This document shows positions 1 to 64,000 of a DNA stretch of 64,000 nt, piece by piece. A model generated the notes under the pieces. It did no database searches, was not told the DNA's origin, and saw nothing but the letters and a program-made list of their open reading frames with translations. Positions within the stretch are counted from its first letter, which is position 1; each line of letters begins with the position of its first letter. The stretch is from Trichopria drosophilae (lineage: Eukaryota > Arthropoda > Insecta > Hymenoptera > Diapriidae). Position numbers and translations under genes: made by a program. The DNA is taken from the NCBI GenBank assembly GCA_030407085.1, contig CM059582.1, forward strand, positions 133,489,501 through 133,553,500, in the 5' to 3' direction.

Positions 1-26749
<26,749 letters not shown>

Positions 26750-27586: not shown

Positions 27587-28572
27587 ATGAGTGATAAGGA
27601 TAATGATTCGGAGTGTGATTCCGAATGTGAAGAGATAAAGTGCTTTCTTTGTCCTAAGAAAGGACCGATTGTGATTGAAGATGCGGAACAATGTGAATTT
27701 TGTGGCGCTTATTTTCATAAGCAGTGTTTTCCACGTCGCATAAAGAAAGACGGCACCTATAAATGCTGTGCTAAAAGAAAAGTTTCCATTCATTTGCTAG
27801 CTAAGATGCTTAGGAGTTTATCGGATGACCTAAATTCTAAGTTTAGTAGTTTAAGCACAGATAACAAGAAATTAGCAGATGGTATGGATGATCTCAGAAA
27901 AAGTCACTCGACAGTCCAGAAAGAAATGCAATTGGTGAAAAATAAAATTAGTTCTACGGAAAAAAAGATTATTGACTTTCAACAAAATCTGGATAGCTTG
28001 AACGTCAATATAAGTAACGTTAGTACAAGGGTGCCTTCGGTCGAATCTGAAGCTCAAAAGCTGGATGAACGAATTACAAAAATTGAGGCTTCTCCGATCA
28101 ACGCACCAGATGAACTCGAATGCCTATTATCTAAATTGCAGTGCATCTCCGAGTTAAAGCAGATGGAACGTCGGGCCAAAAATGTTATTATCTGCAATTT
28201 GAAAGAGACTAACGACAACGTACTAACTGTAATCAATAACATTTTGGCGGATTCTCTGCAAGTTGATATTCGAGCAGTATCGGCAAAACGACTAGGATTA
28301 CCAGCGGATAAAAAGTGAGACCGGTATTGGCATCGCTAACTAGCTCCACTGATGTCTCTACCATTATTGGTAGATACAAACAATTTCCGGCTCCCTTACA
28401 GATCTCATCGGATAAGTCACCTGATCAACGTAAATTATACCAGATTCTACATAAAAAAGTGGAGGAATACAATATGATCCATCCGCAAGCATTGAAAATT
28501 AAATATTCCAACGGAGTTCCGGTGATCCTGGATAAAAATAATGTTAAGTGCGATCCAAAAAACTTAATGTAA
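27587..28572 (+). pseudogene. LINE ORF1 protein, PHD finger plus coiled coil, frameshifted
   Basis: Nucleic-acid-binding ORF1 protein of the LINE, expected to coat the element RNA. Starting at the ATG at 27587, Cys19, Cys22, Cys36, Cys39, His44 and Cys47, followed by CC at 60-61, form a PHD-like zinc finger. About residues 80-180 are heptad-like (Leu/Lys/Glu-rich) and probably coiled coil. The NVIICNL segment near residue 205 begins an RRM-like region. The first frame stops at 28318, and a second frame (28315-28572) continues the same protein, so a single-base indel near 28315 has broken the gene. The end overlaps the start of ORF2 by 25 bases. Family clade is inferred; the zinc finger is seen directly. 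Confidence 0.8.
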
Positions 28573-43362: not shown

Positions 43363-43534
43363 TGTATAACGAAAGGCAATAGTCCCACTATCTAGTGTGT
43401 CTGCGAGTAGTAACAATTTTGCTTCGTGCGCTCCAATTAAATAATTCTGCGTCCATGTAATCCGGTCTTTTCCGGAACTCCTCCCTCTACAGGATTTGTA
43501 TCCCTTACAAGAGAGAGTAAACACATACATACAT

Positions 43535-43540
43535 AAACAA
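43535..43540 (+). repeat. Right target-site duplication AAACAA
   Basis: Satellite bases AAACAA directly after the ACAT tail, followed by normal satellite TAATTCCGTCTCG. Confidence 0.75.
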
Positions 43541-44419
43541 TAATTCCGTCTCGAATTGTTTCAAAACGATATTTTCGATATTTCAAACTGTATTTTTTAA
43601 GTGTATGCAAATTTTTACTATATAAAGAATTCCCTGCAGAAATTATACGCATTTTACAGAAATCGTTATAAACAATGATTATTTAAACAATAATTCCGTC
43701 TCGAATTGTTTCAAAACGATATTTTCGATATTTCAAACTGTATTTTTTAAGTGTTTGGAAACTTTTTACTTTATAAAGAATTCCCTGCAGATATTATACG
43801 CATTTTACAGAAATCGTTATATACAATGATTATTTAAACAATGATTCCATCTCGAATTGTTTCAAAACGATATTTTCGATATTTCAAACAGTATTCATGA
43901 TGTGTATGCAAAATTTTTACTTTATAAAGAATTCCCTGCAGAAATGATACGCATTTTACAGAAATCGTTATAAACAATGATTATTTAAACAATGATTCCG
44001 TCTCGAATTTTTTCAAAATGATATTTTCATTATTTCACACAGTATTTTTAAAGAGCATGCCAAATTGTAACTTTATAAAGAATTTCCTGCACCAGTTATC
44101 AGAAATCGTTATACAGAATAAATATTTAAACAATGATTCCGCCGCGAATTTTTTCAAAACGTAATTGTCCTTATTTCAAACAGCATTTTTAAAGAGCATG
44201 CTTAACTTTATAAAGAATTCCATGCAGAAATTATACGCATTTTACAGAAATCGTAATAAACAATGATTATTTAAACAATAATTCCGTCTCGAATTGTTTC
44301 AATACGATATTTTCGATATTTCAAACAGTATATTTTTTGAGTATATGCAAAATTTTTACTTTATAAAGAATTCCCTGCAAAAGTTATACGCATTTTACTG
44401 AAATCGTTACAAACAATGA

Positions 44420-47301
44420 TTATTTAAACATTGATTCCGTCGTGAATGGTTTCAAAACGATATTTACCTTATTTCAAACAATATTTTTAAATAGCATGCA
44501 AAATTGTAACTTTATAACGAATTTCCTGCCCCAGTTATCAGAAATCGTTATACAGAATAATTATTTAAACATTGATTCCGCCGCGAATTTTTTCAAAACG
44601 ATATTGTCCTTATTTTAAACAGTATTTTTAAAGAGCATGCTTAACTTTATAATGAATTCCCTGCAGAAATTATACGCAGAAATCTTTATAAACAATGATT
44701 ATTTAAACAATAATTCCGTCTCGAATTGTTTCAAAACGAAATTTTCGATATTTAAAACAGTATTTTTTTAGTGTATGCAAAATTTTTACTTTATAAAGAA
44801 TTCCCTGCAGAAGTTATACGCATTTTACTGAAATCGTTACAAACAATGTTTATTTAAACATTGATTCCGTTGTGAATGGTTTCAAAACGATATTATCCTT
44901 ATTTCACACAATATTTTTAAATAGCATGCAAAATTTTCAATTTATAAAGAATTTTCTGTACAAGTTATCAGAAAACGTTTTAAACAATGATTATTTAAAC
45001 AATGATTCCGCCGCTAATTGCTTCAAAACAATATTTTCCTTAATTCAAACAATATTTTTAAAGAGCATGCCAAATTGTAACTTTATGAAGAATTTCCTGC
45101 AGAAATTATACCCATTTTACTGAAATCATTACAAATAATGTTTATTTAAACATTGATTCCGTCGTGAATGATTTCAAAACGATATTTTCATTATTTCAAA
45201 CAGTATTTTTAAAGAGCATGCCAAATTTTAACTTCATGAAGAATATCCTAACCAAGTTATCAGTAATCGTTATAAAGAATGATTATTTAGATAATGATTC
45301 GGTAGAGAACTGATTCAAAACCATATTTTCCTTAATTCAAACAGTATTTTTAAAGAGCATGCAAAATTTTAACTTCATGAAGAATATTCTTCCGAAGTTA
45401 TCTGTAATGGTTATAATGAATGATTATTTAAACAATGATTCGGTAGAGAATCGATTCAAAACGATATTTTCCTTATTTCAAACAGTGTTTTTGAAGAGCA
45501 TGCAAAATTTTTACGTTATTAAGAATTTTCTGCACATGTTATACGCATTTTACAGTAAACGTTATAAACAATGATTCCGCCGCGAATTGTATTAAAACGA
45601 TATTGTCGATATTTCAACCAGTGTTTTTGAATTGGTTGGAACATTTTTACGTTATACATAATTTTCTGCACAAGTTATACGAATTTTACAGTAATCGTTA
45701 TAAACAATGATTATTTAAAGAATCATTCCGTCCCGAATTGTTTCAAAACGATATTTTCGATATTTCAAATAGTATGTTTTTAGTGTATGCAAAATTTTAC
45801 TTTATGAAGTATTCCCTGCAGAAGTTATACGCATTTTACTGAAATCGTTACAAATAATGTTTATTTAAACATTGATTCCGTCGTGAATGGTTTCAAAACG
45901 ATATTTACCTTATTTCAAACAATATTTTTAAATAGCATGCAAAATTGTAACTTTATAACGAATTTCCTGCCCCAGTTATCAGAAATCGTTATACAGAATA
46001 ATTATTTAAACATTGATTCCGCCGCGAATTTTTTCAAAACGATATTGTCCTTATTTTAAACAGTATTTTTAAAGAGCATGCTTAACTTTATAATGAATTC
46101 CCTGCAGAAATTATACGCAGAAATCTTTATAAACAATGATTATTTAAACAATAATTCCGTCTCGAATTGTTTCAAAACGAAATTTTCGATATTTAAAACA
46201 GTATTTTTTTAGTGTATGCAAAATTTTTACTTTATAAAGAATTCCCTGCAGAAGTTATACGCATTTTACTGAAATCGTTACAAACAATGTTTATTTAAAC
46301 ATTGATTCCGTTGTGAATGGTTTCAAAACGATATTATCCTTATTTCACACAATATTTTTAAATAGCATGCAAAATTTTCAATTTATAAAGAATTTTCTGT
46401 ACAAGTTATCAGAAAACGTTTTAAACAATGATTATTTAAACAATGATTCCGCCGCTAATTGCTTCAAAACAATATTTTCCTTAATTCAAACAATATTTTT
46501 AAAGAGCATGCCAAATTGTAACTTTATGAAGAATTTCCTGCAGAAATTATACCCATTTTACTGAAATCATTACAAATAATGTTTATTTAAACATTGATTC
46601 CGTCGTGAATGATTTCAAAACGATATTTTCATTATTTCAAACAGTATTTTTAAAGAGCATGCCAAATTTTAACTTCATGAAGAATATCCTAACCAAGTTA
46701 TCAGTAATCGTTATAAAGAATGATTATTTAGATAATGATTCGGTAGAGAACTGATTCAAAACCATATTTTCCTTAATTCAAACAGTATTTTTAAAGAGCA
46801 TGCAAAATTTTAACTTCATGAAGAATATTCTTCCGAAGTTATCTGTAATGGTTATAATGAATGATTATTTAAACAATGATTCGGTAGAGAATCGATTCAA
46901 AACGATATTTTCCTTATTTCAAACAGTGTTTTTGAAGAGCATGCAAAATTTTTACGTTATTAAGAATTTTCTGCACATGTTATACGCATTTTACAGTAAA
47001 CGTTATAAACAATGATTCCGCCGCGAATTGTATTAAAACGATATTGTCGATATTTCAACCAGTGTTTTTGAATTGGTTGGAACATTTTTACGTTATACAT
47101 AATTTTCTGCACAAGTTATACGAATTTTACAGTAATCGTTATAAACAATGATTATTTAAAGAATCATTCCGTCCCGAATTGTTTCAAAACGATATTTTCG
47201 ATATTTCAAATAGTATGTTTTTAGTGTATGCAAAATTTTACTTTATGAAGTATTCCCTGCAGAAGTTATACGCATTTTACTGAAATCGTTACAAATAATG
47301 T
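44420..47301 (-). repeat. Tandem duplication of a 1441-bp satellite block
   Basis: The stretch from about 44420 to 45860 recurs at 45861 to 47301 with a constant offset of 1441 bp (for example 44461 and 45902, 44872 and 46313, 45359 and 46800), apparently without differences over long runs. It spans about ten diverged monomers, so the unit is a higher-order block copied recently. Confidence 0.85.
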
Positions 47302-47789
47302 TTATTTAAACATTGATTCCGTCGTGAATGTTTTCAAAACGATATTTTCCTTATTTCAAACAGTATTTTTGAAGAGCATGCAAAATTTTTACGTTATAAA
47401 TAATTTTCTGCACAAGTTGTACGAATTTTACAGTAATCGTTATAAACAATGATTATTCAAACAATAATTCCGTCTTGAGTTGGTTCAAAACGATATCTTC
47501 GATATTTCAAACAGTATTTTTTTAGGGTATGCAAAATTTTTACTTTATAAAAAATTCCCTAAAGAAGTTATACGCATTTTACTGAAATCGTTACAAACAA
47601 TGTTTATTTAAACATTGATTCTGTCGTGAATGGTTTCAAAACGATATATTCATTATTTCAAACAGTATTTTTGAAGTGTTTGGAAAATGTTTACTTTATA
47701 AAGAATTCCCTGCAGAAATTATACGTATTTTACGGAAATCGTTATAAACAATGTTTATTTAAACATTGATTCCGCCGCTAATTTTTTTA

Positions 47790-48655
47790 AAACGATATTT
47801 TCGATATTTCAAGCAGTATTTTTGAAGTGTTTGGAAAATTGTAACTTTAGAAAGAATATTCTGCACAAGTTATCAGTAATCGTTATATACAATGATTATT
47901 CATACAATAATTCCATCGCGAATTGTTTCAAAACAACATTTTCCTTATTTCAAACAGTATTTTTAAATAGCATGCAAAATTTTCACTTTATAAAGAATTT
48001 TCTGTACAAGTTATCAGAAATCGTTTTAAACAATGATTCCGCCGCGAATGGCTTCAAAATTATATATTCCTTATTTTAAACAGTATTTTTAAAGAGCATG
48101 CATAATTTTAACTTTATAAAGAATTTCCTGCACAAGTTATCAGAAATAGTTTGAAACAATAATTATTTATACAATGATTCCGCCGCGAATTTTTTCAAAA
48201 CGATATTGTCCATATTTCAAACAGTATTTTTGAACTGTTTGGAAAATTGTAACTTTAGAAAGAATATTCTGCACAAGTTATCAGTAATCGTTATATACAA
48301 TGATTATTCATACAATAATTCCATCGCGAATTGTTTCAAAACAACATTTTCCTTATTTCAAACAGTATTTTTAAATAGCATGCAAAATTTTCACTTTATA
48401 AAGAATTTTCTGTACAAGTTATCAGAAATCGTTTTAAACAATGATTCCGCCGCGAATGGCTTCAAAATTATATATTCCTTATTTTAAACAGTATTTTTAA
48501 AGAGCATGCATAATTTTAACTTTATAAAGAATTTCCTGCACAAGTTATCAGAAATAGTTTGAAACAATAATTATTTATACAATGATTCCGCCGCGAATTT
48601 TTTCAAAACGATATTGTCCATATTTCAAACAGTATTTTTGAACTGTTTGGAAAAT
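47790..48655 (-). repeat. Tandem duplication of a 408-bp satellite block
   Basis: About three shortened monomers beginning near 47810 recur 408 bp further on (for example 47828 and 48236), nearly identical over the whole unit. Confidence 0.8.
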
Positions 48656-49280
48656 TGTAACTTTATAAAGAATATTCTGCACAAGTTATCAGTAATCGTT
48701 ATAAACAATGTTTATTAAAATAATGATTCCATCGCGAATTGTTTCAAAACGTCATTTTCCTTATTTAAATCAGTATTTTTGAAGGTTATGCAAAATTTTT
48801 ACTTTATAAAGAATTCCCTGCAGAAATTATACCCATTTTACAGAAATCGTTATAAACAATGTTTATATGAACATTGATTCCGCCGCGAATTTTTTCAAAA
48901 CGATATTGACCTTATTTCAAACAGTATTTTTAAAGAGCATGCTTAACTGTATAAAGAATTCCCTGCAGAAATTATACGCATTTTAGAAAAATCGTTATAA
49001 ACAATGATTATTTAAACAATAATCCCGTCTCGAATTGTTTCAAAACGATATTTTCGAAATTTCAAGCAGTGCTTTTGAAGTGTTTGGAAAATTGGAACTT
49101 TATAAAGAATATTCTGCACAAGTTATCAGTAATCGTTATATACAACGATAATTTAAACAATGATTCCATCGCGAATTGTTTCCAAACGATATTTTCCTTA
49201 ATTCAAACAGTATTTTTAAAGAGCATGCAAAATTTTAACTTCATTAAGAATATCCTACCCATGTTATCAGTAATCGTCAT

Positions 49281-49945
49281 TGTTACGACTGGTTGGTCAT
49301 AGGCAGCCGTAACCATATTAATTAGCATCTATTATAAGTTATTACGAAATATACTTTAGTTTTTAATATTCATGTATGACAATAGCGTTATAAGATAGGT
49401 TCCGGTCAAACGATATATTCGTGGGACCGAGGAAAAAGCAAGGCGCGAACGCGACACTCTTACCCCAAAGCGTAATCATTTTTCGGCTGGGAACCTGCCG
49501 AGCTTTCACCTGAATTCGCGCAATATACGCCTCGACGTCGGTTACCTGCCGAGGCTAGCAGGTTCCCAGGGCGAAGGATTGCTGACCAGGGATGAGAAAC
49601 GTCAGACGATCCGCGAACTCTCCGTCGACGGATCCAAAAAGACGTGGACACTCTGGGATTCGGTGCTAGACTCCCGGGGAGATCACACCTCGCGCTCGTC
49701 CATTTCCAATCTACTCAAGGGTCGAGAGTCGAGGTCCGTCCAGGACTTAGGCGGTTTTCGAGATTACCAAATAGAGACTTAGCCGTAGCCGACCGAGGCT
49801 ACTGAACGTCGGGAAACACAAGTGCGCGCCTCGTTCGTTCGACTTAACGTGCCGATACTTATGTACGGGTGCTGGACGTACATAAATAAAACCACCACGT
49901 AAATAATATTCCCGTACATATTTTATGTTACCCCGAAACGTAACA
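49281..49945 (+). repeat. 5' LTR of the gypsy element
   Basis: 665 bp bounded by TGTTACG at 49281 and its exact inverse CGTAACA at 49939-49945. AATAAA near 49883 may be the polyadenylation signal. An 11-bp inverted repeat, TGGGAACCTGC (49488-49498) and GCAGGTTCCCA (49558-49568), lies inside. No second LTR copy is present to confirm the boundaries. Confidence 0.8.
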
Positions 49946-50521
49946 TAAATAATTTGGAGGCAGCGTCGGGGCTCCGCGCTCGATTGTGTGTTCGTTTCTT
50001 TAAAATCGAATTCATGTCGGGTGTTAACCCCGTTCACGCGGAGACACCGAACCACCCTCCAGCTACCGAGGGTTTACAAACTTTGAAAATTTGAACAACT
50101 ATAAAATAAAAACTGTATACATTTCAAACGCGAGTGTGAAATTAATATCCGCGCGCGTCGCGAATCGGATGCTAACAGACAATCAAACAAAAAAAAAACG
50201 GTGAATATATTTTTGTGGTGAACTGTGGTGAACCAAGAGAATTGTGGAACTTAGGTGGAAGAAAAGGAACCCACGGACAACCATTGCAATTTACCTGAGG
50301 GCTACAGTCAACAAGGATGAGGACAACGAACGCGAGATTCCTGTTCTACATAGCAGTTCTGAAAGTGATCGAAGGGTGAGTCGCGACTATTTTCCCCCTC
50401 AATAGTATTGCCGGTAAATTTGATGAATTTCGTTTGTTACAAAATTTTATGCATTGCTCGTACACACACGCATTAACATATTTGGCCACGCCCATGTCCA
50501 CATGAATTTCCACGTAATTGT
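49946..50521 (+). other. Leader with candidate primer-binding site
   Basis: Begins TAAATAATTTGGAGGCAGCG. TGGAGGCAGCGTCGGGG is a plausible tRNA primer-binding site by position and its TGG start, but I cannot name the tRNA. The rest is untranslated leader up to the first gag ATG. Confidence 0.5.
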
Positions 50522-52083
50522 ATGAATAAGATAAAGGACATATTGGCGTCCCCAGCAGCAAAAAAAATACGAGATCGCAATATACCGTCGCGAAAAAAGA
50601 AACCGAAAACGGCGGATTTCGGAGAAACCTCGTCGAGCGACACAAGCTCACGGGACCATTCCCCAGAAAATAGTTCAAATTCGCGCGATATTACCCCAGA
50701 GAAAAAGCCGTATTTAACGGAAAATTCTCCCAACAAAATTTTATATTTGCAAGAAACCTCCTCAGAGGAAGTTCCGGGGTTAACGATAACCATCTCAGAT
50801 AAAAATCAGATTTCGGTAGAACAGAAACCGAGAATTATGGGGGACAATCAGAATACCAACGAGTAATTTCTCCCAACGGGACCCTGCACCCTAACATTAC
50901 GGACGTCCGCGAATGACGTCATCGCCGGCGTGCCCGAATTTTACGGTAATAGGGAAACGTATCCTTATTTTTCAAGCGCATGCCGGGATGCTTTAGCACA
51001 ACTCCCAGAAGGTAGCCGACCTTTATTTAAATTATTACTGAGAGGGAAAGTTAAGGGGAAGGCCGAAAGGTTCGCAAGACACAGCGGGTATATGATACCA
51101 TTGAGGTGCTCTTCAACGCCATGGACAAGGTCTACGGACACCGAGAGGACCCGCACATATACCTATCAAAAATTCCAACTTTTTTTCAGCGTAACGACGA
51201 AACCGCGGGAGACTTCGGTACGCGAATAACCGATATGTGCACGGATGCACTCGCCGCGACTGCCGCGTCAACAGAATTAACGGCCGAATGTAAAGCTAGT
51301 TTAACGGCGTTAATAAATAAAAAATCTTTAGACCAATTTATAGCGGGATTAAAGGGAGATATGGAATTCAGGGTACGAGCGGAACGTCCAAAAACGTTGC
51401 AGGAAGCCACCGATCATGCCAATCTATTAGAACGCGTGTATAGAGAGAAATACGAACGGGCGGCCCCCCGAACACTGGAAAACAAGAGGGCGGAACGAGC
51501 GGTTTCCGCGAGAATAGTAAATGCCGAAGACAATTATCTTGCAAATTCGCGTTATGATATGTCGGATATGTCAGAATACGTGTGTAGCTATTGCGATTTA
51601 GTCGGACACGGAGAGGAAACATGCGAATCTCGAGCATATAACGAGATAGTTTGTAGTTATTTCAAACGAATCGGTCATACACGGGACCGATGTTTAACAC
51701 TGAACAGCTTTAACAGACGAGGTCAAACACGACAGATAAACCCAAATAGAAATACGGGTAATTATAATGCGAATGTACACCAACACAGTTACAACCCGTG
51801 GCGAGACTTGCAAAATTTTAGTAGACACCCACGGTACTCAAATCAAAGTTCGCAAAACTTCGATAGGAACTTGGGGTACTCGAACCAAAATCGGAAAAAT
51901 TTCAATGGCAATGCGGAAAATTATAACCGGCGAAATCCGAATTACAACCCACCGCGAAATTACAGCGGGAACAACCCAAATGAAGCAAAACGCGGGGGAA
52001 ACGTCCAACGACCCGAACAAAATGACGGGCGGGAAAATTTGCGGCGAAACGCTCAACAAATGAATGAATGTCCCAACGGTTAG
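50522..52083 (+). pseudogene. gag of the gypsy element (broken)
   Basis: Structural protein for the element's particle. A first segment (50522-50866) starts at an ATG and is Lys/Ser/Glu-rich. An in-frame TAA at 50864-50866 separates it from the capsid-like segment (50930 on; VPEFYGN, YFSSACRDAL). Near 51085 the frame shifts into the frame that runs to 52083. That last part has a capsid-like C-terminal domain, then a good CCHC knuckle (CSYCDLVGHGEETC), a second knuckle with the second Cys replaced by Phe (CSYFKRIGHTRDRC), and a long Asn/Arg/Tyr-rich tail (about residues 200-320 of that frame). The tail overlaps pol by 16 bases in the -1 frame, a usual gag-pol layout. Confidence 0.8.
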
Positions 52084-54753
52084 AGCAGGCAAAGAGCCCA
52101 AAAACCTTTAAACTATCAGGACACTCGAGCCGAGACTGCGGGATCGAGTGGGCCACGGAAGCAGTCGACAGCATCACAACAGATGAGACTGCTGAAATTA
52201 GCGGAGCCAATATCCGTTATGGAGATGTTGGGCTCTCCAGATGCCCAAGACTAGAGATATCGAGCAAGGATTTGCATTATACCCATGGTATGTTCCTCGT
52301 AGACACCGGTTCCGAAATAAACATTATTAAGCTCTCGAAATTACGTCGAGACATGTATCCGGACCGTACGGTAAAATGTCAACTTAGCGGAATCGGGGAG
52401 GGAATTATCAACACGTTTGGGTGCACAAAGATAAAATTTCAAGGTTTAACGATCGAGGCACAAATCGTATTAGACGATTTCCCGATCCTCGAGGACGGAA
52501 TCCTCGGTGATCCATTTTTGCGAAAATATGACGTCAGTATAGACTATAGGAATGACGCGTTTCAAATTGGGGGGCAAGTGTATCCATTCGCCGGGGCTTA
52601 CTGGGCGGAACTGCCTCAGCGAAGCCGGAAAGTAATTCGCGGGCGTATCACTAATGGTGTAAATTTTGCCCAAGATTGATACAATGGAAGGCGTTTATAT
52701 CGGAAATGCGTTAGTAGAAAATAAGAATGGATACGCGTATGTAATTGCCGCGAACACCACGGACGAAATAGTAAAAACAAATATCCCGGCAACGGCATTG
52801 GAAGAATGCGACATCGCAAGCGAGATCAGATTCGACAGCGACGAAACAGTCGACATAATCAACGACGATCGTCATTCGTCACAGCGCGCAACTGTCCATA
52901 CTACTCACACACATGCGAGTCGGGCGAAACTAGTATCGGCGCTCATGGATTTAAGCGCATTGCTACACGACGAACGAGAGCACGTGGAGTCTCTCGTCGC
53001 GAAACACGCAAATCGGTTTCATCTACCGGGCGAGACGTTAAACGCAACTACGTTGTTCTCGCATCGAATACACACGACGGACGACGTACCGGTCCGCGCG
53101 AAGCGCTTCCGACACCCCTCCCCCCCCCCCCCCATAATCAAGCATGAAATGCAACGGATCGTGACGGAGCAAGAGGCCGCCGGAATCATAAGACACTCAA
53201 CTTCGCCGTACGATTCACCAGCATGGGTCGTACCGAAGAAGGCAGGCCCGAACGGGGAAAAGAAATGGCGACTCGTCATCGATTTTCGGGCGTTGAACGA
53301 GAAAACGATCGGTGATGCGTACCCCATTCCCAATATCACCGACATTTTGGATCAACTCAGGCATGCATCATATTTTACTACACTCGACTTACGATCAGGA
53401 TTCCACCAAATCGAAATGGACAAACGAGACGCACATAAGACGGCGTTCTCTATACCTTATGGGCATTGCGAATATACACGTATGCCCATGGGAATAAAGA
53501 ATGGTCCTAGTGCATTCCAAAGATTGATGGACCTAGCTTTATCAGGTTTACAAGGGATCGAAATGCTCGTATACTTGGATGACATCGTCATCTACGCGAA
53601 GAGCTTGGAAGAACACGGTAAGAAACACGGCAAGGGCGAATTTAACTCTAGAGCCCTTGAAATGCAAGTTCCTGTGCAGAGAGGCAGGGTATTTATGCCA
53701 TATAATTAGCGAGAACCAAGTGAAACCAGATCCCCGAAATTTAGAAGCGGTAGAAAAATTCCCGCGACCCAAGAACCAGAAACAGGTCAAACAATTTCTT
53801 GGCCTGGCATTGGAGATTTGTGGAAGACTTCGCAAAAATCGCATATCCACTCACATTTCTCCTACGAAAAACAACACCCTTTGTATGGAAGAAAGAACAA
53901 GAGGAAGCATTTGGGTTGTTAAAAACAAAGTTATGTTCCCCCCTCCCCCCCCCCCCCCCCATACTAAACCTGCCGGATTTTACAAGACCTTTTATAGTGA
54001 CAACTGACGCATCAGGCTATGGCCTAGGACCGATTTTATCACAGGGAGAAATAGGAAAAGACACTCCAGTGGCATACGCGTCCAGAAATTTGAAAGACGC
54101 CGAAACCCGATATCCCACGGGAGATAAAGAGATGCTAGGCGTAGTTTTCGCGGTCGAACAATTTCGCCCTTACATATACGGAAGAAAAATTACAATAGTC
54201 AAAAGACCACGAACCATTGAAATACCTAAAAAATATGAAAGATTCAAAATTATGCATTCACAGATTTCGAACAAATCTGGAAGACTACGAATACGACGTT
54301 GAATATAAACCGGGTAAATATAATGTAAATGCCGATGCATTATCACGAAACCCGCCCGACGGAATCGAACGTCCAGAAGATGGTAGTGACGAAAAAGAGA
54401 GCCCGCCAGTAGCAGCAAACTTGTTACCGCTCAGAAAACAAAAACCAATAGACCGAGGGTCAAAACGACGGAAGGAAATCCACCAGTATAACACTCGCCG
54501 ACGATCGGAGTCGAGTTCGGGAAACCCAGCTGACCGCAAGATGAGACGGCTGGACGATAATACCGATGCCACAACAATACCAGATAATGGAAAAGAAACG
54601 TCGAAAGGAACTGTAAAATTGCCAAGGAAACCAAAGGGTTCCTCGGTAAGTAAATACTGGAGTTGGAAAATAATTGAAGCTGACGCGCAGAAAACCCCGA
54701 TGAAACTTACAGATGCCGGGAAGACGATCAGCCAGGCGATTTACGCCACATAA
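52068..54753 (+). pseudogene. pol: aspartic protease, reverse transcriptase and RNase H (frameshifted)
   Basis: Polyprotein of the gypsy element, spread over several frames. Protease is in 52068-52679: LVDTGSE with the catalytic Asp codon at 52302, and DGILGDPFL as the second signature. Near 52668 the frame changes to 52666-53709, holding the RT: YDSPAWVVPKK, WRLVIDFRALN, TLDLRSGFHQI, TRMPMGIKNGPSAFQ and catalytic YLDD (53572-53583). Frame changes near 53630 and 53810 lead through LTLEPLKCKFL and QVKQFLGL to the RNase H frame (VTTDASGYGLG, GDKEMLGVVFAVEQF). A further shift near 54200 destroys the TDH region, and VEYKPGKYNVNADALSRNP follows in frame to 54753. Two C-runs (53120-53133, 53945-53960) add prolines at normally compact sites. 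Confidence 0.88.
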
Positions 54754-56032
54754 CCCGTCGAATTCGCACGAGAATCGACATGACGCGCAAAATGTCGCGG
54801 AGAATAATATACAAAACCCACCCACGCCAATACAGGCAGAGGAGCCGCACTTGGCCCCAACGTTAATAATGGATACCGATTCTCTAATGGAAGGTTCCGA
54901 CGTTTCCCAAAATATCATTTCAGACATTACAAATTTTGTGGCGAATCGGGATGAGGATTATAGGGTCAGATGGGAAGACCGAATGGGCCATTGGCCGACC
55001 GAATATATTGTCCCGGAAAAATACGAAAGTGTCAAAGAGGACGTCCAGGGGATGATAGCGAGAGAAAAACATACAGTCTCCCCGCAACAATCGACAGCAG
55101 TGGAACCCTCCTCCGTGCGCAATGAAAGAGAAAAAGTAAATAGACCTTGGAAACAACGCTATCGAATGGACATTAAGGTACAACGATTAGATAATAACGA
55201 AGGTGACAGTGAAAGCTCCGAAACTGAGAATAATTTAAAGAAACGTCGAAAGAAGAAATTACGAAAACCGGATTAAAGGCGCAAAGAGCGCGAGAAACCA
55301 ATTTCAGACGATGACAGAATACAACATAGACACACGCAAGGAAACAATGAACGGCCTGGAGAACACATGTTACCAACGAGTAACAAGGACGCACAAAACA
55401 GAGCCACACATCCAAGGGAAACATCACTCGTGTTGAGGGAAGGAGAAGAAGACCCCAAACAACGATGCGACTCGCTCGCGGGATACTACAGCGATTGCCG
55501 AGAGGCGCGCCGTAAAGAGCGTAGGTCCGCAACGTTTAGCGCGGACGAAAAATTAAATTATCTAATCGACGGTAAAGACAGCCAAGATACTGCAAAGACA
55601 CCGGCTCGTCGCCCGAGCCATATTAAAATAGGTACGACCACCTCTCCACGGCGCGGGGAGAGAGAGAGTAAATGCATAGAGGGAAAAGACAGCGCTATAG
55701 CAGCCACATACGGCACAAGCAGCGAGAGAGAATTGCCTTCAACGGATGCAAGTGCATCAAGAGAACGACCGAGGGGCACTGAGGTCAGAGTTACCCCCTC
55801 TCCGGTTGTCGAGGAGAATGGGAATATTACAATGAATGAATCACATAACGATAGCTCCGAGAGTTCGGAACGAACTGAGCACACTGCTTCCCCCTCCTCG
55901 CCAAATAAAAAGTGCAGAGACGCGCATGGTGACAATGAAATGTCACTCGGCACAAACAAACATAAAAATTCTCCGCTGTATAATTACATAATAAACGAAC
56001 ATTGCACTGAACCCTACGCGATACTAACATGA

Positions 56033-56391
56033 AATGAAGATGTCGCAATAGATGGAAATTGTCTATTCGACTCACTCATCAAATTACATCACCTCAATAT
56101 GACTCCGGTGGAATTGCGAAAAACTCTATTAAAATTCGGAAAATTGAACGATTGCGCAGAACCAAAAAACACACAAAAGATACTTCTGTCATTCAACGAA
56201 TATGGTGATGACAACCACATTCGATTATTCGCCATGCACTTCGGCATAAATATCTGCGTACATTATAATGATGATCCCATCAAAACGAGATACTTTCATT
56301 TTAAAGTATCCAACGCAACGATTTGGTACCATCTACACTTAGAAAATGAACATTACACGCCATTTTTGAAATTAGTGAGCGAAGAACCATC
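56033..56391 (+). other. OTU-type cysteine protease domain
   Basis: OTU proteases cleave ubiquitin or ubiquitin-like modifiers. About 115 residues begin just after the in-frame TGA at 56030. DGNCLFDSL supplies the catalytic Asp and Cys, in the canonical DGNC[LF] motif. GDDNHIRLFAMHFGINICVHY matches the central helix-strand region. LENEHYTPFLKL supplies the catalytic His followed by an aromatic residue, as usual at the domain end. All three active-site residues are visible and the spacing (about 100 residues from Cys to His) suits a small viral-size OTU. That it is a deubiquitinase is inferred from the family; substrate preference is unknown. Confidence 0.85.
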
Positions 56392-56410
56392 AGAAGAAAG
56401 GTTTTCACCT

Positions 56411-56536
56411 GATCCGGGAGGCGGACACTCCGATCCGGGAGGCGGACCCTCCGATCCAAGAAACGGATCACCTGATCCGGGAGGGGGACCCTCCGATCCG
56501 GGAGACGATTCGCCCGATCCGAGAAATGGATCACCC
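56411..56536 (+). repeat. 21-bp repeat encoding a 7-residue linker
   Basis: Six units of GATCCGGGAGGCGGACCCTC type, encoding DPGGGPS or DPRNGSP variants. This is a flexible linker between the OTU and macro domains. It is in frame throughout. Confidence 0.9.
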
Positions 56537-56719
56537 GACAAAAAGAGAAAAGATAATAATAATGATACTAATATGTCAGAAAACAAATGTGACACTGAAA
56601 ATAGGCCAGAAAATCAGCCTCTGCCAAGCTGAACAACTGACACTGTCGAAGAAACAGACGGACACCAGCTCCAAACACAGACACCGGATTCCCTTGAATC
56701 TGGCGAACCCGCCATTGCA

Positions 56720-57004
56720 ATGTCAAATAAACATCTGACAAGTGAAAAGGGCCATGTTGCATTTTTCACGACCGCTGATTGTCTCCTTGACAGTGAGGTG
56801 GGAAGGCTCCTGCAAGAGAAATCACTCATGACATCACAAAAATTAAAGGATGGCACTCCTACAATTGGCGAAGTCGTAGTAACCAAGACCGGGAGGTATT
56901 TGATGTTTGCCCTGATAGTAAAACCGACTATCAGCGAGAGAGCATCGAAATGCGCCATAAATTCATGTCTGAGGAAACTAAATAGAATAATTAAGGGGGA
57001 GTAA
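56720..57004 (+). other. Truncated macro domain, TARG1/OARD1-like
   Basis: Macro domains of this branch bind ADP-ribose and remove it from proteins. Residues KGHVAFFTTADCLL...VGRLL, GEVVVTKTGRYLMFALIVK and an amphipathic helix ending LRKLNRIIKGE follow the order of the N-terminal two-thirds of TARG1/OARD1-type macro domains. The Lys after FALIV sits where that family has its catalytic Lys. The glycine-rich ligand loop is altered (DSEVG). The C-terminal third, with the Gly-rich loop and catalytic Asp, is absent because the frame stops at 57004 where the inserted DNA begins. The assignment rests on pattern recognition and needs a profile search. Confidence 0.6.
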
Positions 57005-57402
57005 CACCTTTGAGGCTTCAAAAATTGTCAAAAAATTTTTTTCGCTAAAATGCTTCTTTAAGGCATGTAGAATAAGATATTATTAATTCCGAGACAAGTT
57101 TGTACTGAAAATTTTTCAGAATCAGCATTTATGTACATAGGTTCACAGAGCGCATAAAGTGCCTCCGAGCGCTCTCCGAATATTCCGTCTTTGTAACGTA
57201 CCTATCGACAATTTTCAGTTCTAGCTAGTTCGGTAAGTGTATTGTAGTTGGCACCTGATGACATTCTCAATGGAAAACCGTATATTAGTCATATTACTTT
57301 CTATTTCGTGTGTCCACCACGTGTTTCCAACGAACAGTTTCGGTTATATTACCGGCGTCGGCACGTCAATTCGCATTCATTTTATCAAAAATTGAAATAA
57401 AT
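57005..57402 (+). other. 5' flank of the Mutator-like transposase gene
   Basis: About 400 bp without coding signal, starting GTAACACCTTTGAGGC. The gypsy reading frame ends at its left edge, so the insertion junction is near 57000-57005. I found no matching inverted copy of this end near 59200 or 62800. Confidence 0.45.
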
Positions 57403-59151
57403 ATGTCGAGAAAACGAGTTTACAGCAGCCAAAAAGGGTCTAAATTTAATAATTCACGTGCTTCAAAAAGTAAAATATCGAATAGAAAGCCTGTAAATAG
57501 ATATTCAGCAGAAGGCCAAAGTGATGGTGTGAGTGCGTCGGCGAAAAAATTGAAAGACAGTGTTGACGAATATAACATACACGTCGACAATACTTTCGAA
57601 TATCGTTTTATTAATTTTATAACGGTTTTTCAAGCAATTTCACAAATGATTGTGTGCAAAGTATGTGGCTCCAATATAAAATTCGAAGAAGCCAGTAGTC
57701 GTGGCTTAGGATTTAAAATTGTTGTTGTGTGTGATAAGTGCGATCCACGTTATGTTAATTCACGTCCACTTATAAACAATCGCGCTTATGACATAAACCG
57801 TCGAATAATATTTGTAATGAGACTACTCGGCGTCGGAATCAATGGAATAAAGAAATTTTGTGCCTTTATGTGTCTGTCAAATCCCGTATACCAATCGTTT
57901 CATGATCAAATAATTGATGTTATTCGAATTGCCACGAGTTCTGTGTGTGAAAGGTCTATGAAACAAGCAGCTGTAAAAGAAAAGAAAACGTCATCAGAAA
58001 AAGGACAGACTGCCGGAATAACGGTTTCGGGCGACGGGACATGGAGAAAAAAGGGATTTGCGTTCTTGTTCGGTGCCGTGTCTCTCATAGGATGGTATAC
58101 GGGGAAAGTCGTCGATATTTTAGTGAAATCGAAATTTTGTCAAGCCTGTAGTTTATGGAAGGGGAAGGAAAACACAGCTGACTATGAAGAATGGTATGCT
58201 CAGCACGAAGAAACCTGCGAAAAAAATCATAACGGTTCTTCGGGGAAAATGGAGGTCGACGCCGTAATTGAAATGTTTCAACGTTCTGAAGAACTGCACG
58301 ATGTTAAATATTCTAATTACGTCGGAGACGGAGACAGCAAAACCTTCTTGGGAATTTTAAATGTAAACCCTTATGAAGACTTGATTGTAACGAAAAAAGA
58401 ATGTATTGACCACGTTCAAAAACGAATGGGCACGAGATTAAGAAATTTAAAAAAAACTGTACAAGGTCTTGTAGGCCGAGGAAAATTGACGGGGAAACTG
58501 ATCGACGAGTTAACAATATTTTACGGTCTCGCCATCCGAAGAAACACAACATCGATTGAAGCCATGAAACGTGAAATATGGGCAACTTTGTACCATAAAA
58601 TTTCCACGGACAGTAACCCGCAACACGACTACTGTCCAGCCGGAGATAATTCATGGTGTACGTGGCAGAAGGCGAAAGCGCGCAACGAATTGCAACATTA
58701 CCAGCACAAATCGGAGTTACCTGATGAAGTTGTTAAAGCTGTGAAGCCGATTTATGAAGATTTGAGTCGCGATGAGTTATTAACCCGTTGTCTTGGCGGT
58801 TTCACGCAGAACAGCAACGAAAGTTTTAATTCTGTGCTGTGGGCAATAGCACCGAAAACCGTGCACAGTTCGAAGAAAATCGTCGACATAGCTGCCCATA
58901 TTGCTGTCTGCAGTTTCAACGATGGTTTGCACAGCATCATGGAAATTATGCAAATGTTAGGACTGCCTATTAGTAACAAATGCTACAACTTCTGCATGAC
59001 AAGCGACTCAAAGCGCATTTCGGCAGCTGAGAACTCCATCACTTCAGAGGCCCAGGAAGCTCGTAGGCAACATACATCGACGAGAAAACTTGCCGACGAT
59101 GAAGCTGACAATATAGAAGGACAGATGTATGGTGCAGGAATAGCAGATTAA
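57403..59151 (+). CDS. Mutator-like transposase, intact
   Basis: DDE-type transposase of the Mutator-like domain family found in many insect genomes, expected to cut and move its own DNA element. An uninterrupted 582 residues start from the ATG at 57403; an upstream ATG at 57310 would add 31 residues but lacks the basic MSRKR start. The N-terminus is basic and Ser-rich, followed by a CxxC...CxxC zinc-binding pair (CKVCGSN...CDKC). Catalytic motifs are VSGDGTWRKKG (first Asp), YVGDGDSKTF (second Asp) and GGFTQNSNESFNSVLW (Glu). A second metal-binding group lies between them (FCQAC...H...C...GSSGKMEVD). CPAGDNSWC precedes the Glu. Its intactness contrasts with the broken gypsy element around it, so it arrived later. 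No clear terminal inverted repeats were found. Confidence 0.85.
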   Translation: MSRKRVYSSQKGSKFNNSRASKSKISNRKPVNRYSAEGQSDGVSASAKKLKDSVDEYNIHVDNTFEYRFINFITVFQAISQMIVCKVCGSNIKFEEASSRGLGFKIVVVCDKCDPRYVNSRPLINNRAYDINRRIIFVMRLLGVGINGIKKFCAFMCLSNPVYQSFHDQIIDVIRIATSSVCERSMKQAAVKEKKTSSEKGQTAGITVSGDGTWRKKGFAFLFGAVSLIGWYTGKVVDILVKSKFCQACSLWKGKENTADYEEWYAQHEETCEKNHNGSSGKMEVDAVIEMFQRSEELHDVKYSNYVGDGDSKTFLGILNVNPYEDLIVTKKECIDHVQKRMGTRLRNLKKTVQGLVGRGKLTGKLIDELTIFYGLAIRRNTTSIEAMKREIWATLYHKISTDSNPQHDYCPAGDNSWCTWQKAKARNELQHYQHKSELPDEVVKAVKPIYEDLSRDELLTRCLGGFTQNSNESFNSVLWAIAPKTVHSSKKIVDIAAHIAVCSFNDGLHSIMEIMQMLGLPISNKCYNFCMTSDSKRISAAENSITSEAQEARRQHTSTRKLADDEADNIEGQMYGAGIAD

Positions 59152-59229
59152 CGGTGAGTTTTGAGTTATTACAAGTTTTCGTCTTTCAAAACTTTAAACG
59201 CGTTTTCTGAAAAACACCATTTTACAAAT
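59152..59229. other. 3' flank of the transposase gene
   Basis: 78 bp of AT-rich sequence between the transposase stop and the outer inverted-repeat arm. Nothing recognised. Confidence 0.5.
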
Positions 59230-59677
59230 TGGCGCTGTTCCATAGGGGAGAGGTATTGCCAATGAGAACTTTGTTAGCAGGTCCTGTATTGTGAGCACGT
59301 ATTTATTTCCGTCTCGGGACATGGTAGTCGGACCCCATAGCACACATGGATCAGAGTAAGGTTTCGCGGACATTTTTTTTGATGGACCACCCCCTGGCGA
59401 ATTGTTAACCGATCTTGATAAATCTTTTTTTAAAATACTCAGGAATGATAGTAGTATCATTGTAGTATCGCATTTTTGATATCTTGAATATTCGCTGACC
59501 TGTGCGTTCTCAAAGTCACCATTTTTCTCTGATTCCAAACATCTCATCGGAGCATCCACTTTTCGATGAAATTAAAATCATGGCTGTTTAAGTTTCCGGT
59601 GCTCTAAGCTGTTTTGGGGGTCGCTGAATTCGAATCTCGTACTGATTTTCGAAATTCAAAATGGCGGCATCCAAAAT
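59230..59677 (-). repeat. Outer inverted repeat, left arm, with captured integrase piece
   Basis: 448 bp that is the near-exact reverse complement of 62509-62956. The part at 59230-59345 is an inverted copy of the gypsy integrase start (minus strand, WGPTTMSRDGNKYVL). In this copy the integrase frame is open at the point where the right copy has lost one base. Confidence 0.9.
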
Positions 59678-60180
59678 GGCGGACGACTTTAAAAAAAAAA
59701 GCTTAGATTCGCTTGAAACTTGTTACTCGGGGTTTTTTTGGGTTGCTGAATTCGAATCTCGTACTGGATTTTCGAAATTCAAAATGACGGCATCCAAAAT
59801 GGCGGACGAAATTAAAAAAATGCTTAGATTCGCTTGAAACTTGTTACTCGGGGGTTTTTTGGGTCGCTGAATTCGAATCTCATACTGGATTTTCGAAATT
59901 CAAAATGGCGTCATCCAAAATGGCGGACGAATTTTTAAAAAATGCTTAGATTCGCTTGAAACTTGTTACTCGGGGGTTTTGTGGATCGCTGAATTCGAAT
60001 CTTGTACTTAATTTTCGACATTCAAAATGGCGGGATCCAAAATGGCGAACGAATTTAAAAAAAAAATGCTTAGATTCGCTCGAAACTTGTTATTCGGGGA
60101 TCTTTTGGGTCGCTGAGTTCGAATCTCGTACTGGATTTTCGAACTTCAAAATGGCGGCATCCAAAATGACAAATTGGTAA
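59621..60180 (+). repeat. Tandem repeat, five units of ~122 bp
   Basis: The phrase TCGCTGAATTCGAATCTCGT or close variants starts at 59621, 59743, 59864, 59986 and 60110 (steps 121-124). Each unit holds AAAATGGCGGCATCCAAAAT, an A-run, TTAGATTCGCTTGAAACTTG and a G/T-run. Related units occur at 61340-61610 (plus) and at 61620-61900 and 62509-62580 (minus). Confidence 0.9.
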
Positions 60181-61098
60181 AAATTGAACGGGCTTTAAAA
60201 AAGGATCGAATATAGTAAATCCTCTCGTATTCAATTTTGACTAACACAAAAATGAAGCAATTGTGCAGTGTTAAAGAAAATATATATTCGGAAAAAAGGC
60301 GATATCGAGGAAATAAATGTAATGAAAGTAAGTCTCACTGCAACTGCTAGGTATCAGCATTAAATATGATCCCTAAAATATATATAAAATAATGTATGTG
60401 ACATTTAATATTTTTGAATGGGAAACAAATATTTATTACCTGAATCTGACAATTTATATACATTTATATGAGATATTTAATCTCATAATGTACAAAATAT
60501 ATATTACTCGTAAATGTGAACTTTATTCAATTTGACGCCCAGTTTTGAAAATGGATACACTCATATTGTGGAAATATTTTTCAGCATATACCACGTTTGT
60601 CAAATTAATACACTAATATGAATGAAGCGTATAATGCTTCTTAACAGTGTCAATATACAAAATTTTTTTATCAAATATGTTATTAAATTAATTTGTCCAA
60701 ATAGATGCAATATAAATTAACAAAACAGGAAATATGAAAATCATAGAAAAATAAAACAAGATAGAGGAATTTAAAAAAAAAGTTCACATTTTTTAGAAAA
60801 ATTCGAATCCCTTACGATGAAATTGTGAATAAATAAAGTGAAGAATTATGCGCGGTTACAAGAAAAAAAATTGCCGTCATATGACCGGCTGAAGAAAGTG
60901 AAAATTGCTTTTGCTCTCGTAATTGTAATTAAACTATTTTGACCTACTATTATAGTATCATTCGCCTTCCAACTAAGCACAGCAAACTTCATTCGGAAAG
61001 TTTGAATGTGCGGCTTATAAAATTCACGGTTTTCTGCAAGTTCTGAAGTCTAAAAAATTGTTGTAAAAAACATATTCCTTTCTTGACTTACTTATTAT
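60181..61098. other. AT-rich interior, nothing recognised
   Basis: About 0.9 kb with many short stops in all frames. No gene or repeat identified. Confidence 0.5.
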
Positions 61099-61420
61099 AT
61101 ATGGGACGTTTGACGTCAACCGGGCGACATGAATGGCCAAAATTTGGCTGATCGTAAAATAATGGTTAAGGTCTTAAAATGTTCGTATCATTATGCTCTT
61201 TCAAATTAAAAGTGGATTTTAAAAAAAAATCAATGTGGCCGATGCAAAATGGCGCAAGACTTCCACATACTCTAACTATTGGTTTAAAAAAACTTTGATA
61301 ATTAACAGTATAGTGGATAAACTGATTGGAAGAAGTGATATATAACATTTTCGGGGTCGCTAATTACGAATCTGAAGCCAGATTTTCAAAATACACAATG
61401 GCGGATCCAATATGGCGGAC
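61099..61420 (+). repeat. Inner inverted repeat, left arm
   Basis: 322 bp that is the close reverse complement of 61824-62144. Contains GACGTTTGACGTCAACCGGG near the outer end and a diverged 122-bp-type unit (CAATGGCGGATCCAATATGG) at the inner end. Confidence 0.9.
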
Positions 61421-61823
61421 GAATTTTTAAAAAGATCGTTTTATTTTTATGAAACTTGGCATCCGGGGGGGTTTGGGTTCGCTGATTACTAATCTGAAGT
61501 CAGATTTTCAAAATTCAAAATGGCAGGCGATAAAATAAAAAATTTATCGGATTTTCCTGATGAAATTTGTTACATGGAGGTTTTTAGGGTCGCTGATTTC
61601 GAATCAGAAGCCAGATCCGACGAAGGTTGGATTCGTAATCAGCGTCCTCGAAAACCCCTCGAGTAACAAGTTTTAAGCAAATCCGAGCAAGTTTCAAATT
61701 TTGTCCGCCATATTGGATCCGCCATTTTGAATTTTGAAAATCTAAGGCCGGATTCTTAATCAGCGACCCCGAAAACCGCCCGAGTAACAAATTTCAAGCA
61801 AGTCCGATCAATTTTCAATTTTT
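61421..61823. repeat. Centre of the inner palindrome, units facing each other
   Basis: Contains diverged 122-bp-type units: plus orientation up to about 61610, then minus orientation (CAGCGACCCCGAAAACC, TTGTCCGCCATATTGGATCC). The turn is near 61610-61625. Confidence 0.75.
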
Positions 61824-62144
61824 GTCCGCCATATTGGATCCGCCATTGTGTATTTTGAAAATCTGGCTTTAGATTCGTAATCAGCGACCCCAAAAATGTT
61901 ATATATCACTTCTTCCAATCAGTTTATCCACTATACTGTTAATTATCAAAGTTTTATTAAACCAATAGTTAGAGTATGTGGAAGTCTTGCGCCATTTTGC
62001 ATCGGCCACATTGATTTTTTTCAAAAATCTACTTTTAATTTGAAAGAGCATAATGATACGAACATTTTTAGATCTTAACCATTGTTTTACGATCAGCCAA
62101 ATATTGGCCATTCATGTCGCCCGGTTGACGTCAAACGTCCCATA
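61824..62144 (-). repeat. Inner inverted repeat, right arm
   Basis: Close reverse complement of 61099-61420. It ends with CGGTTGACGTCAAACGTCCC. Confidence 0.9.
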
Positions 62145-62156
62145 TGTATACATATA

Positions 62157-62508
62157 CAGTAAAACTTAGGTTATCCGACCTTCGATTAACCGAGCTTCCG
62201 CGTTATCCGAGGCAGGATTTACGAGGTAAATTTTCAAAAGTGCTCGGATTGAAAATGTAAAAGCAGGTACTTGTAGATTAATTTTAAAAACATCTTTTTT
62301 TCCTCTAATAAAATTATTTCAATAACTATATTTAATAGTTTTTTAAATAAACGTCAAAAACCTCATTTTAGAAAGTTGTTCATTAAGGTTTATTAATGTT
62401 TTCTACAAAATCTCATTTTTCTTCAGCCGCGTTAGTAATAAGTTATACGCTATAATATCAATGCTTTGGCCCAAAGATTAATCTACATTTAATTTTCATA
62501 TCTGTACT
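62157..62508 (+). mobile_element. Pogo/Tigger-like DNA transposon end or short MITE
   Basis: CAGTAAAACTTAGGTTATCC at 62157, continuing GACCTTCGATTAACCGAGC, has the look of terminal repeats of pogo/Tigger elements (CAGT start, TTATCCGA motifs repeated). It is preceded by TA, the usual target. The matching second end was not found, so it may be a truncated end. It has no counterpart outside the left inner arm, so it inserted after that repeat formed, or the left copy lost it. The right boundary is only an upper limit. Confidence 0.5.
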
Positions 62509-62956
62509 ATTTTGGATGCCGCCATTTTGAATTTCGAAAATCCAATACGAGATTCAAATTCAGCGACCCCCAAAACAGCTTGGAGCACCGGAAACTTAAA
62601 CAGCCATGATTTTAATTTCATCGAAAAGTGGATGCTCCGATGAGCTGTTTGGAATCAGAGAAAAATGGTGACTTTGAGAACGCACAGGTCAGCGAATATT
62701 CAAGATATCAAAAATGCGATACTACAATGATACTACTATCATTCCTGAGTATTTTAAAAAAAGATTTATCAAGATCGGTTAACAATTCGCCAGGGGGTGG
62801 TCCATCAAAAAAAATGTCCGCGAAACCTTACTCTGATCCATGTGTGCTATGGGGTCCGACTACCATGTCCCGAGACGGAAATAAATACGTGCTCACAATA
62901 CAGGACCTGCTAACAAAGTTCTCATTGGCAATACCTCTCCCCTATGGACAGCGCCA
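62509..62956 (+). repeat. Outer inverted repeat, right arm
   Basis: Near-exact reverse complement of 59230-59677. Its last ~116 bases (62841-62956) are gypsy integrase sequence, contiguous with the rest of the integrase to the right, so this is the original and the left arm is the copy. Confidence 0.9.
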
Positions 62957-63700
62957 TCGGTAGCAAAAGCGTTTGCCACCGAATTCATTTGCAAATTCGA
63001 AGCCCCACGAGGGATACTAACAGACCAAGGCCAAAACTTTATGTCAGACACTATAAAAGAATTGGCCAAGCTATTCAATATAGCAAAATACAATACGTCC
63101 GCCTATCATCCCCAATCAAACGGGAGCATAGAGAGGAGCCATTGTGTCCTAATAGAATATTTTCGATGTTTTGTTAAAAAACACAAAGACTGGGACAAGT
63201 GGATTCCGTACGCCATGCTCGCGTACAACGCTAGCACGCACGAGGGCACGAAATACTGTCCACACGAACTAGTATTCGGACAACCAGCCCGAGTACCCTC
63301 TAGCGTCGAACCGAGAGAAAAAATAATGACATATACGGATTACGCAGAGGAACATCTTAAGAACATCATCGAATTACAAACCTTAGCAGGACTAAACCTG
63401 AATCAGGCCAAACATCGGTCAAAAGCATACTATGACCGCAAACAGAACATCAAGTACTTCAGAGTGGGCGAATGTGTCATGTTGGAGAAAGAACCCCGAC
63501 ACGGGAAATTCGGCGACACATTCGTCGGGCCATACGAAATAATTGAAATAGTTGGGCCCAGAAACGTCAAGATCCAACTCGATGAGACAAAAACAAAGGT
63601 CGTCCACATTGACAAACTAAGGAAAAGTCATGACCCTCTCATTATCAATGAGGAGATCGGGTCACAACCAGAAAGCGACGCGTCAGAAATAAAAGTATAG
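62841..63700 (+). pseudogene. Integrase of the gypsy element (5'-truncated, frameshifted)
   Basis: DDE integrase that joins element cDNA to the host genome. It starts abruptly at VLWGPTTMSRDGNKYVLTIQ. The N-terminal HHCC zinc domain is missing and the usual first catalytic Asp before GP is not present, so the junction with inserted DNA lies inside the core. One base is missing at about 62947, relative to the inverted copy at 59230-59345. After that the frame is open to 63700: the second Asp in ILTDQGQNF, then the catalytic Glu in HPQSNGSIERSH, then a C-terminal chromatin/DNA-binding region (RVGECVMLEKEPRHGKFGDTFVGPYEI) ending DKLRKSH. A short acidic tail precedes the stop. Confidence 0.88.
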
Positions 63701-64000
63701 TTAAGGCGGTCTGAAGGGATCGATGAGTAAAGATAGAACATAAATAATAAGAGTAAGACTAAACATAAATAATTTGATGGCTTTTCTTCTTTTCATAAAA
63801 TAAAACACATATTTTTTATATAGCTTGCAACAGCGCGAGCAGTGGGTTAGAAAAAACGGTAGTAAAAGAAAATAATGTGATATAACGTTACGATTTCGAC
63901 TAAAACTAAGAGAGTGTTTCACACAAATTTCATATTATTATCTATATTATTTCACATAAATGAGTTGAATTGAAAATATCTACGTTCTTCATGAAAATAA
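63701..64000. other. AT-rich sequence after integrase
   Basis: No envelope-like frame and no LTR start seen. It is either the 3' untranslated interior of the gypsy element or unrelated sequence. Confidence 0.45.

Follow-up and report, generated by a model that had tools for sequence, protein, structure and literature searches.

Why would a Ty3/gypsy retrotransposon carry, between its RNase H and its integrase, sequences resembling an OTU deubiquitinase and a macro domain? This question is raised by a locus of the hymenopteran Trichopria drosophilae, which we analyzed within a window of 64,000 nucleotides (nt), the whole stretch of DNA under study (assembly GCA_030407085.1, contig CM059582.1, forward-strand positions 133,489,501 to 133,553,500; coordinates below are window positions). 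On its + strand, from ~50.9 to 63.7 kb, the window contains a copy of a gypsy-type long terminal repeat (LTR) retrotransposon, and an initial annotation made from the sequence alone had placed both domains in its pol region. That placement was borne out by copies elsewhere in the genome, where the order reverse transcriptase (RT), RNase H, linker, OTU, repeat linker, macro, zinc finger and integrase core is present in open frames. The explanation that we prefer, and to which we would give about an even chance, is that the window holds a broken copy of a Ty3/gypsy-type element with several subfamilies, whose pol includes an active OTU isopeptidase and a TARG1-derived macro domain that extends the integrase.

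The pol reading frame and its copies elsewhere in the genome

The frame spanning 54704-57004 (+ strand) has four stops counting the final one, i.e., the three internal stops that the initial annotation had reported, against a mean of 37 in Markov-simulated sequence of the same composition; none of the 2000 simulations had fewer than 12 stops in any of the six frames. This frame is coding. Its stop-to-stop pieces cover 54704-55276, 55277-56032, 56033-56632 (holding the OTU-like domain) and 56633-57004 (macro-like). The first two form a linker of ~440 codons (54704-56032), split by a stop, with few stops and no Pfam match. It is followed by the OTU-like domain (56033-56392), by the repeat linker that had also been noted earlier, which is rich in Gly, Pro, Asp and Ser and encoded by tandem 21-nt repeats (56405-56538), and by the first two-thirds of a TARG1-like macro domain (56720-56994).

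The truncation of the macro domain, likewise recognized at the outset, is explained by comparison with four other copies: their match to the window ends at 56994 and restarts at 62847, and because identity is 95-97% on either side of the interruption, both halves belong to one element. As homology ends at 56994, the last ten bases of the frame have no counterpart in the four copies. The window copy lacks the end of the macro domain, the integrase zinc finger and the very beginning of the core; the remainder of the core and the C-terminal part of the integrase (62847-63700, + strand) are ~97% identical in nucleotide sequence to another copy, at locus L012. With this interruption, three stops and a change of frame near 54.7 kb (the switch into the OTU frame falls near 54704-54753), the window copy is broken.

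The intact arrangement comes from other copies. Searching the 936-Mb genome with the OTU piece gave 150 scored matches of 748 candidates, and 49 copies besides that in the window were examined: the 29 that matched best, plus 20 of lower similarity. The latter were mostly chosen for long open frames, so the open-frame counts describe a non-random sample, and copies without an OTU could not appear because all 49 were found with the OTU piece. Among them, the macro domain was detected in 46 (in one of the remaining three, the copy is truncated by the end of its contig). A single open frame holds OTU and macro in 29/49 copies, OTU, macro and zinc finger in 21/49, and these plus the core in 17/49; RNase H and OTU share one in 15/49, and in 4/49 RT, RNase H, OTU, macro, zinc finger and core all lie in one frame. 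The order OTU, macro, zinc finger was found in 44/44 copies where both macro and zinc finger were detected. Like other Ty3/gypsy elements (Metaviridae), the family has RT and RNase H followed by zinc finger and integrase core, with the zinc finger lost in the window copy; it differs in the ~800-900 codons, including OTU and macro, that separate RNase H from the zinc finger (as located in the copies at L050 and L053).

These shared frames also bear on whether the OTU and macro sequences belong to some other element, such as a Helitron, nested between RNase H and integrase. Other elements do interrupt the window copy, and OTU domains are known in Helitrons and Ginger1 (PMC2836005, in the portions available). 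An inserted passenger is nevertheless hard to reconcile with an OTU in frame with RNase H on one side and with macro and zinc finger on the other, in a fixed order. We consider nesting extremely improbable and reject such an origin, barring one ancient insertion that was absorbed into pol.

We divided the copies by similarity into five groups, and some pairs exceed 99% identity over more than 2.5 kb, from which the family seems to have been recently mobile. Selection was compared across copies, as the initial annotation had suggested, using the proportions of nonsynonymous (pN) and synonymous (pS) differences; pairs share ancestry, so the pair counts are not independent. Between groups, median pN was 0.24 against a pS of 0.86 for the OTU (pN<pS in 580/580 pairs) and 0.24 against 0.75 for the macro domain (546/546 pairs). 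The integrase core behaved alike (251/251 pairs), as did RT, RNase H and zinc finger. Synonymous sites of OTU and macro are thus near saturation between groups while their amino acids are conserved. Within groups, RT and RNase H (group A not represented) had a median ratio of nonsynonymous to synonymous substitution rates (dN/dS) of 0.20-0.27; for OTU, macro, zinc finger and core the median was 0.48-0.54, values that post-insertion decay may have inflated. We conclude that OTU and macro are under purifying selection and, given shared frames, fixed order, kept catalytic residues and conserved amino acids, that they are selected parts of pol.

Identity of the OTU-like and macro domains

The OTU assignment draws on profiles and on catalytic positions. 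PF02338 (OTU) was the sole Pfam match of the trimmed window piece (E 0.037, 15 bits), aligning residues 7-107 with positions 3-127 of the 128-position profile; 0/9 shuffles and 0/1 reversed piece gave such a match. Three of five other copies also matched Pfam OTU, at 14-16 bits. When scored with a profile built from human OTUD1, OTUD3 and OTUD5, the window piece reached 11.9 bits, a value attained by 0/2000 shuffles, and 40/42 copies exceeded the 99.9th percentile of shuffles. Profile-profile alignment (hhalign) of the copies with these human proteins returned a probability of 88 and an E-value of 2.8e-6. The catalytic triad that the initial annotation had called intact is indeed complete in the window: D7 (56051-56053), C10 (56060-56062) and H107 (56351-56353). 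Among the 41 of the 49 other copies with a usable OTU (stop-free and at least 85% covered), Asp is kept in 40/40 and Cys in 40/40 (one copy is gapped there), and His in 39/41, both changes falling in group A. Because the catalytic residues are kept under selection, activity of the OTU as a cysteine protease or deubiquitinase is probable. Searches of PADLOC and NCBIfam with the OTU piece gave nothing, PHROGs gave two weak families of unknown function, and no OTU relatives were found in phages and plasmids.

For the macro domain, relatives outside the genome were informative. The integrase piece matched 44 proteins among 228 candidates in the protein database, including proteins from the bee Augochlora pura, the ant Cataglyphis niger and the protist Carpediemonas (25% identity). 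Three gypsy-type integrases, P0002, P0007 and P0017, carry a region matching that upstream of our integrase (only its end in P0017). The OTU and macro pieces had no match in the protein database, and relatives were found in neither viral nor prokaryote contigs.

Over 65 residues, the window macro fragment shares 29% identity with human OARD1/TARG1 (BLASTP E 6e-4 as a single comparison; 16/5000 shuffles equal the score). We compared these sequences with a TARG1-like profile made of TARG1 and ten phage and plasmid macro domains. The region just before the zinc finger in P0007, a metagenome relative, scored 24.1 bits (0/2000 shuffles), more than any of the 31 full-length macro pieces from our copies, and P0002 scored 7.1 bits (1/2000 shuffles); four control pieces of the window were unremarkable. 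Including P0007 and P0002 in the profile raised the score of the window fragment to 7.7 bits, with 0/2000 shuffles as high. A profile of the 31 full-length pieces matched TARG1 at 25.9 bits (E 4.9e-10 for one comparison, 0/500 shuffles), hhalign of the same profile aligned 116 columns (probability 80, E 1.4e-5), and full-length pieces of two other copies ranked TARG1 chains 1-5 among 177,635 PDB sequences. These comparisons relate the macro domain to TARG1/OARD1.

Several observations weigh against these two assignments. The 15-bit OTU score of the window falls under the curated Pfam cut-off of 23.3 bits; 26/2000 shuffles that keep the motifs match the OTU score, which means that part of the signal is two motifs; and the hhalign alignment spans only columns 3-85, leaving the catalytic His outside. 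Two of the five other copies had no Pfam match at all, and two of the three that matched aligned the first motif only. In PDB, the window OTU piece found no match, and that of another copy found no OTU chain, just an unrelated chain at E 1.2. On the macro side, the window fragment alone reached 3.4 bits against the TARG1-like profile (21/2000 shuffles as high), P0002 compared pairwise with TARG1 gave no match (815/5000 shuffles), and some group D pieces were weak (10/300 shuffles for the piece from L051). The PDB ranks of TARG1 came with E-values of 0.36-0.57, weak apart from rank, and the P0007 region retrieved no TARG1 chain from PDB up to E 10, with an unrelated chain at E 0.12. None of five other copies matched any Pfam macro family, and of the ten macro domains from phages and plasmids, six scored below 2 bits with the retrotransposon macro profile.

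Might the linker then be coding sequence that resembles OTU and macro domains by chance? The weakness of single-sequence searches would fit: the window macro fragment matched nothing in Pfam or PDB, and the PDB results for the two OTU pieces were no better. Profiles, shuffles and catalytic conservation counter this explanation, however, and we think it very improbable. The two calls of the initial annotation thus fared differently under profile search: the OTU was positive in profile-profile comparison though below the Pfam cut-off, for which reason we call it "OTU-like", and the macro domain was negative in Pfam and positive with the TARG1 profile and hhalign. Single-sequence AlphaFold models of OTU and macro had predicted local distance difference test (pLDDT) values of 41.5 and 52.5, respectively; no macro or OTU chain appeared among the Foldseek and VIA-align matches listed for them, and the models were not used.

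Glycine-rich ADP-ribose-binding loops define the TARG1-type macro hydrolases, and Lys84 and Asp125 of TARG1 have catalytic roles. The resemblance to human OARD1/TARG1 extends over the 116 alignable columns and to Lys84, whose position holds K in 40/40 copies (K68 in the window fragment). The element's domain differs in having neither the glycine loops nor the Asp of the Asp125 position. The GAGI loop of TARG1 aligns with DSEV (D 38/40, S 40/40, E 39/40); GCGLD of TARG1 faces a GYDxD-type stretch, the second glycine loop lacks GxG in 31/31 full-length pieces, and the motif GYDxDxxxKQ is retained in 30/31. The position of Asp125 is Ala in L012 (by hhalign) and A, V, S, T or P, never Asp, across the 31 pieces. 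Because glycine loops and Asp125 position are not kept, the "ADP-ribose hydrolase" of the initial annotation is unsupported: the macro domain is probably not a TARG1-like hydrolase, and a reader or a structural module of the integrase is likelier.

The same positions bear on the function originally proposed, in which the OTU removes ubiquitin and the macro domain removes ADP-ribose, blunting host restriction. The kept catalytic residues of the OTU, the kinship of the macro domain with TARG1 and purifying selection on both would agree with it. Replacement of both TARG1 glycine loops makes hydrolysis doubtful, however, and neither domain is tied to immunity by the present data; we regard such host counteraction as quite unlikely.

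The rest of the window copy and its surroundings

Upstream of the extended pol region, all on the + strand, the window copy retains recognizable pieces of a gypsy-type element. A gag-like open frame with a zinc finger lies at 51055-52080 (Pfam zf-C2H2_10, E 4.2e-7; Ty3_capsid at E 0.02, below cut-off), with a further open frame at 50867-51229. An aspartic protease-like piece (52068-52676; Pfam RVP, E 0.0075, below cut-off) precedes the RT (52663-53706; RVT_1, E 1.3e-28) and RNase H pieces (53754-54299; RT_RNaseH_2, E 1.1e-30), and an open frame without Pfam match follows 3' of RNase H in a different frame (54199-54753). In this copy, the coding pieces for RT and RNase H contain runs of C, at 53120-53133 and 53945-53960. 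No repeat was shared by 49280-50300 and 63601-64000 that could represent an LTR pair, the window stopping 300 bases past the integrase, and codon usage did not separate the element from neighboring sequence.

The lost stretch of the window copy is replaced by 5.85 kb of foreign sequence (56995-62846). It contains an uninterrupted 620-codon frame for a Mutator-like transposase (57289-59148, + strand; Pfam Mutator, E 9.2e-65) and an inverted copy of the integrase core start (59230-59340, - strand), located at the arm of an inverted repeat (59239-59649, partner 62538-62948) whose arms are 99% complementary. A second inverted repeat (61096-61432 and 61812-62148, 95%) and tandem units of ~121 bp lie between these arms.

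Elsewhere, the window is occupied by long satellite arrays with a ~151-bp unit (1-26249, 35231-38155 and 43534-49277), the last of which ends ~1.6 kb before the first gag-like frame of the retrotransposon. At the end of the first array, a stretch of 500 bases (26250-26749) consists almost entirely of C, as repeats of a C 16-mer that carries one A, and is possibly an assembly or sequencing artefact. Two long interspersed nuclear element (LINE)-type elements with endonuclease and RT domains are present at 28548-31322 and 40236-42762, one of them with a 924-codon open frame.

Possible roles beside the integrase

In the explanation we prefer, a broken copy of an element with an active OTU and a TARG1-derived integrase extension, the OTU is a predicted active cysteine isopeptidase that would strip ubiquitin or a ubiquitin-like protein. 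It would act on the element's own pol/integrase complex, or on host factors met at nuclear entry and integration; the position of the OTU beside the integrase suggests three candidate substrates, namely the integrase complex, host proteins that partner it, and the pol polyprotein. The macro domain would be a module derived from TARG1, lacking the loops usual in the hydrolase and forming an N-terminal extension of the integrase; at integration sites it might bind nucleic acids or ligands resembling ADP-ribose.

The polyprotein itself could be the principal substrate if the OTU were primarily a processing protease, cutting pol in cis and freeing macro-integrase from RT-RNase H, with deubiquitination secondary. 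The OTU is located as such a protease might be, within the long linker from RNase H to integrase and in one frame with RNase H (15/49) or zinc finger (21/49), and the OTU of turnip yellow mosaic virus performs both jobs (PMC5695851, in the text available). An aspartic protease-like piece, albeit below the Pfam cut-off, is already present in the element, however, and we hold primary processing to be unlikely, if less so than host counteraction; we infer deubiquitination as the first-ranked job of the OTU and processing as the second. A more elaborate proposal, which we also consider quite improbable, joins both domains in a two-part mark module of the integrase precursor. Here an active OTU isopeptidase would be paired with a repurposed TARG1 fold that reads ADP-ribose at broken DNA (or that uses the invariant Lys and the new motif GYDxDxxxKQ for other chemistry), steering integration to sites of poly(ADP-ribose) polymerase (PARP) and ubiquitin signaling, or protecting integration there.

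Known systems share parts of this arrangement. Among DNA transposons, Ginger1 and Helitrons have OTU domains (PMC2836005; for Helitrons also PMC6431247), and Ginger1 combines a gypsy-like integrase and an OTU in one protein; Ginger1 elements, however, are DNA transposons with the OTU C-terminal to the integrase, and "macro" is nowhere in the available text of PMC2836005. Burro, a giant gypsy element of planarians, resembles our family in having a polyprotein with added domains, some of them ubiquitin-related (MATH/TRAF, SUMO-like and BCL-2 in all), but the domains and their positions are different, and the accessible portion of PMC6431247 names OTU once, for Helitrons. The epsilon-like endogenous retroviruses of fish are LTR elements with a macro domain; theirs is described as encoded by additional reading frames rather than in pol beside the integrase, and "OTU" occurs 0 times in the portion of PMC4977317 available. 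Viral OTU deubiquitinases (PMC3968130, as far as the available text goes) are, by description only, likewise OTU-type enzymes of parasitic genomes, those of RNA viruses. Wolbachia and arthropod OTU domains are compared in PMC11342252, without a link to gypsy elements in the parts consulted. The combination of OTU and macro in a gypsy pol, which the initial annotation did not know as described, was found in none of the open-licence PMC matches listed; it may be annotated in subscription papers or repeat databases.

Ubiquitin and ADP-ribose marks govern DNA repair and antiviral defence. That both domains were kept beside the integrase until synonymous sites neared saturation implies that they aid the spread of the element. 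The family thus offers a natural system for how integrating elements handle ubiquitin, and one in which a hydrolase fold is apparently becoming something else within pol.

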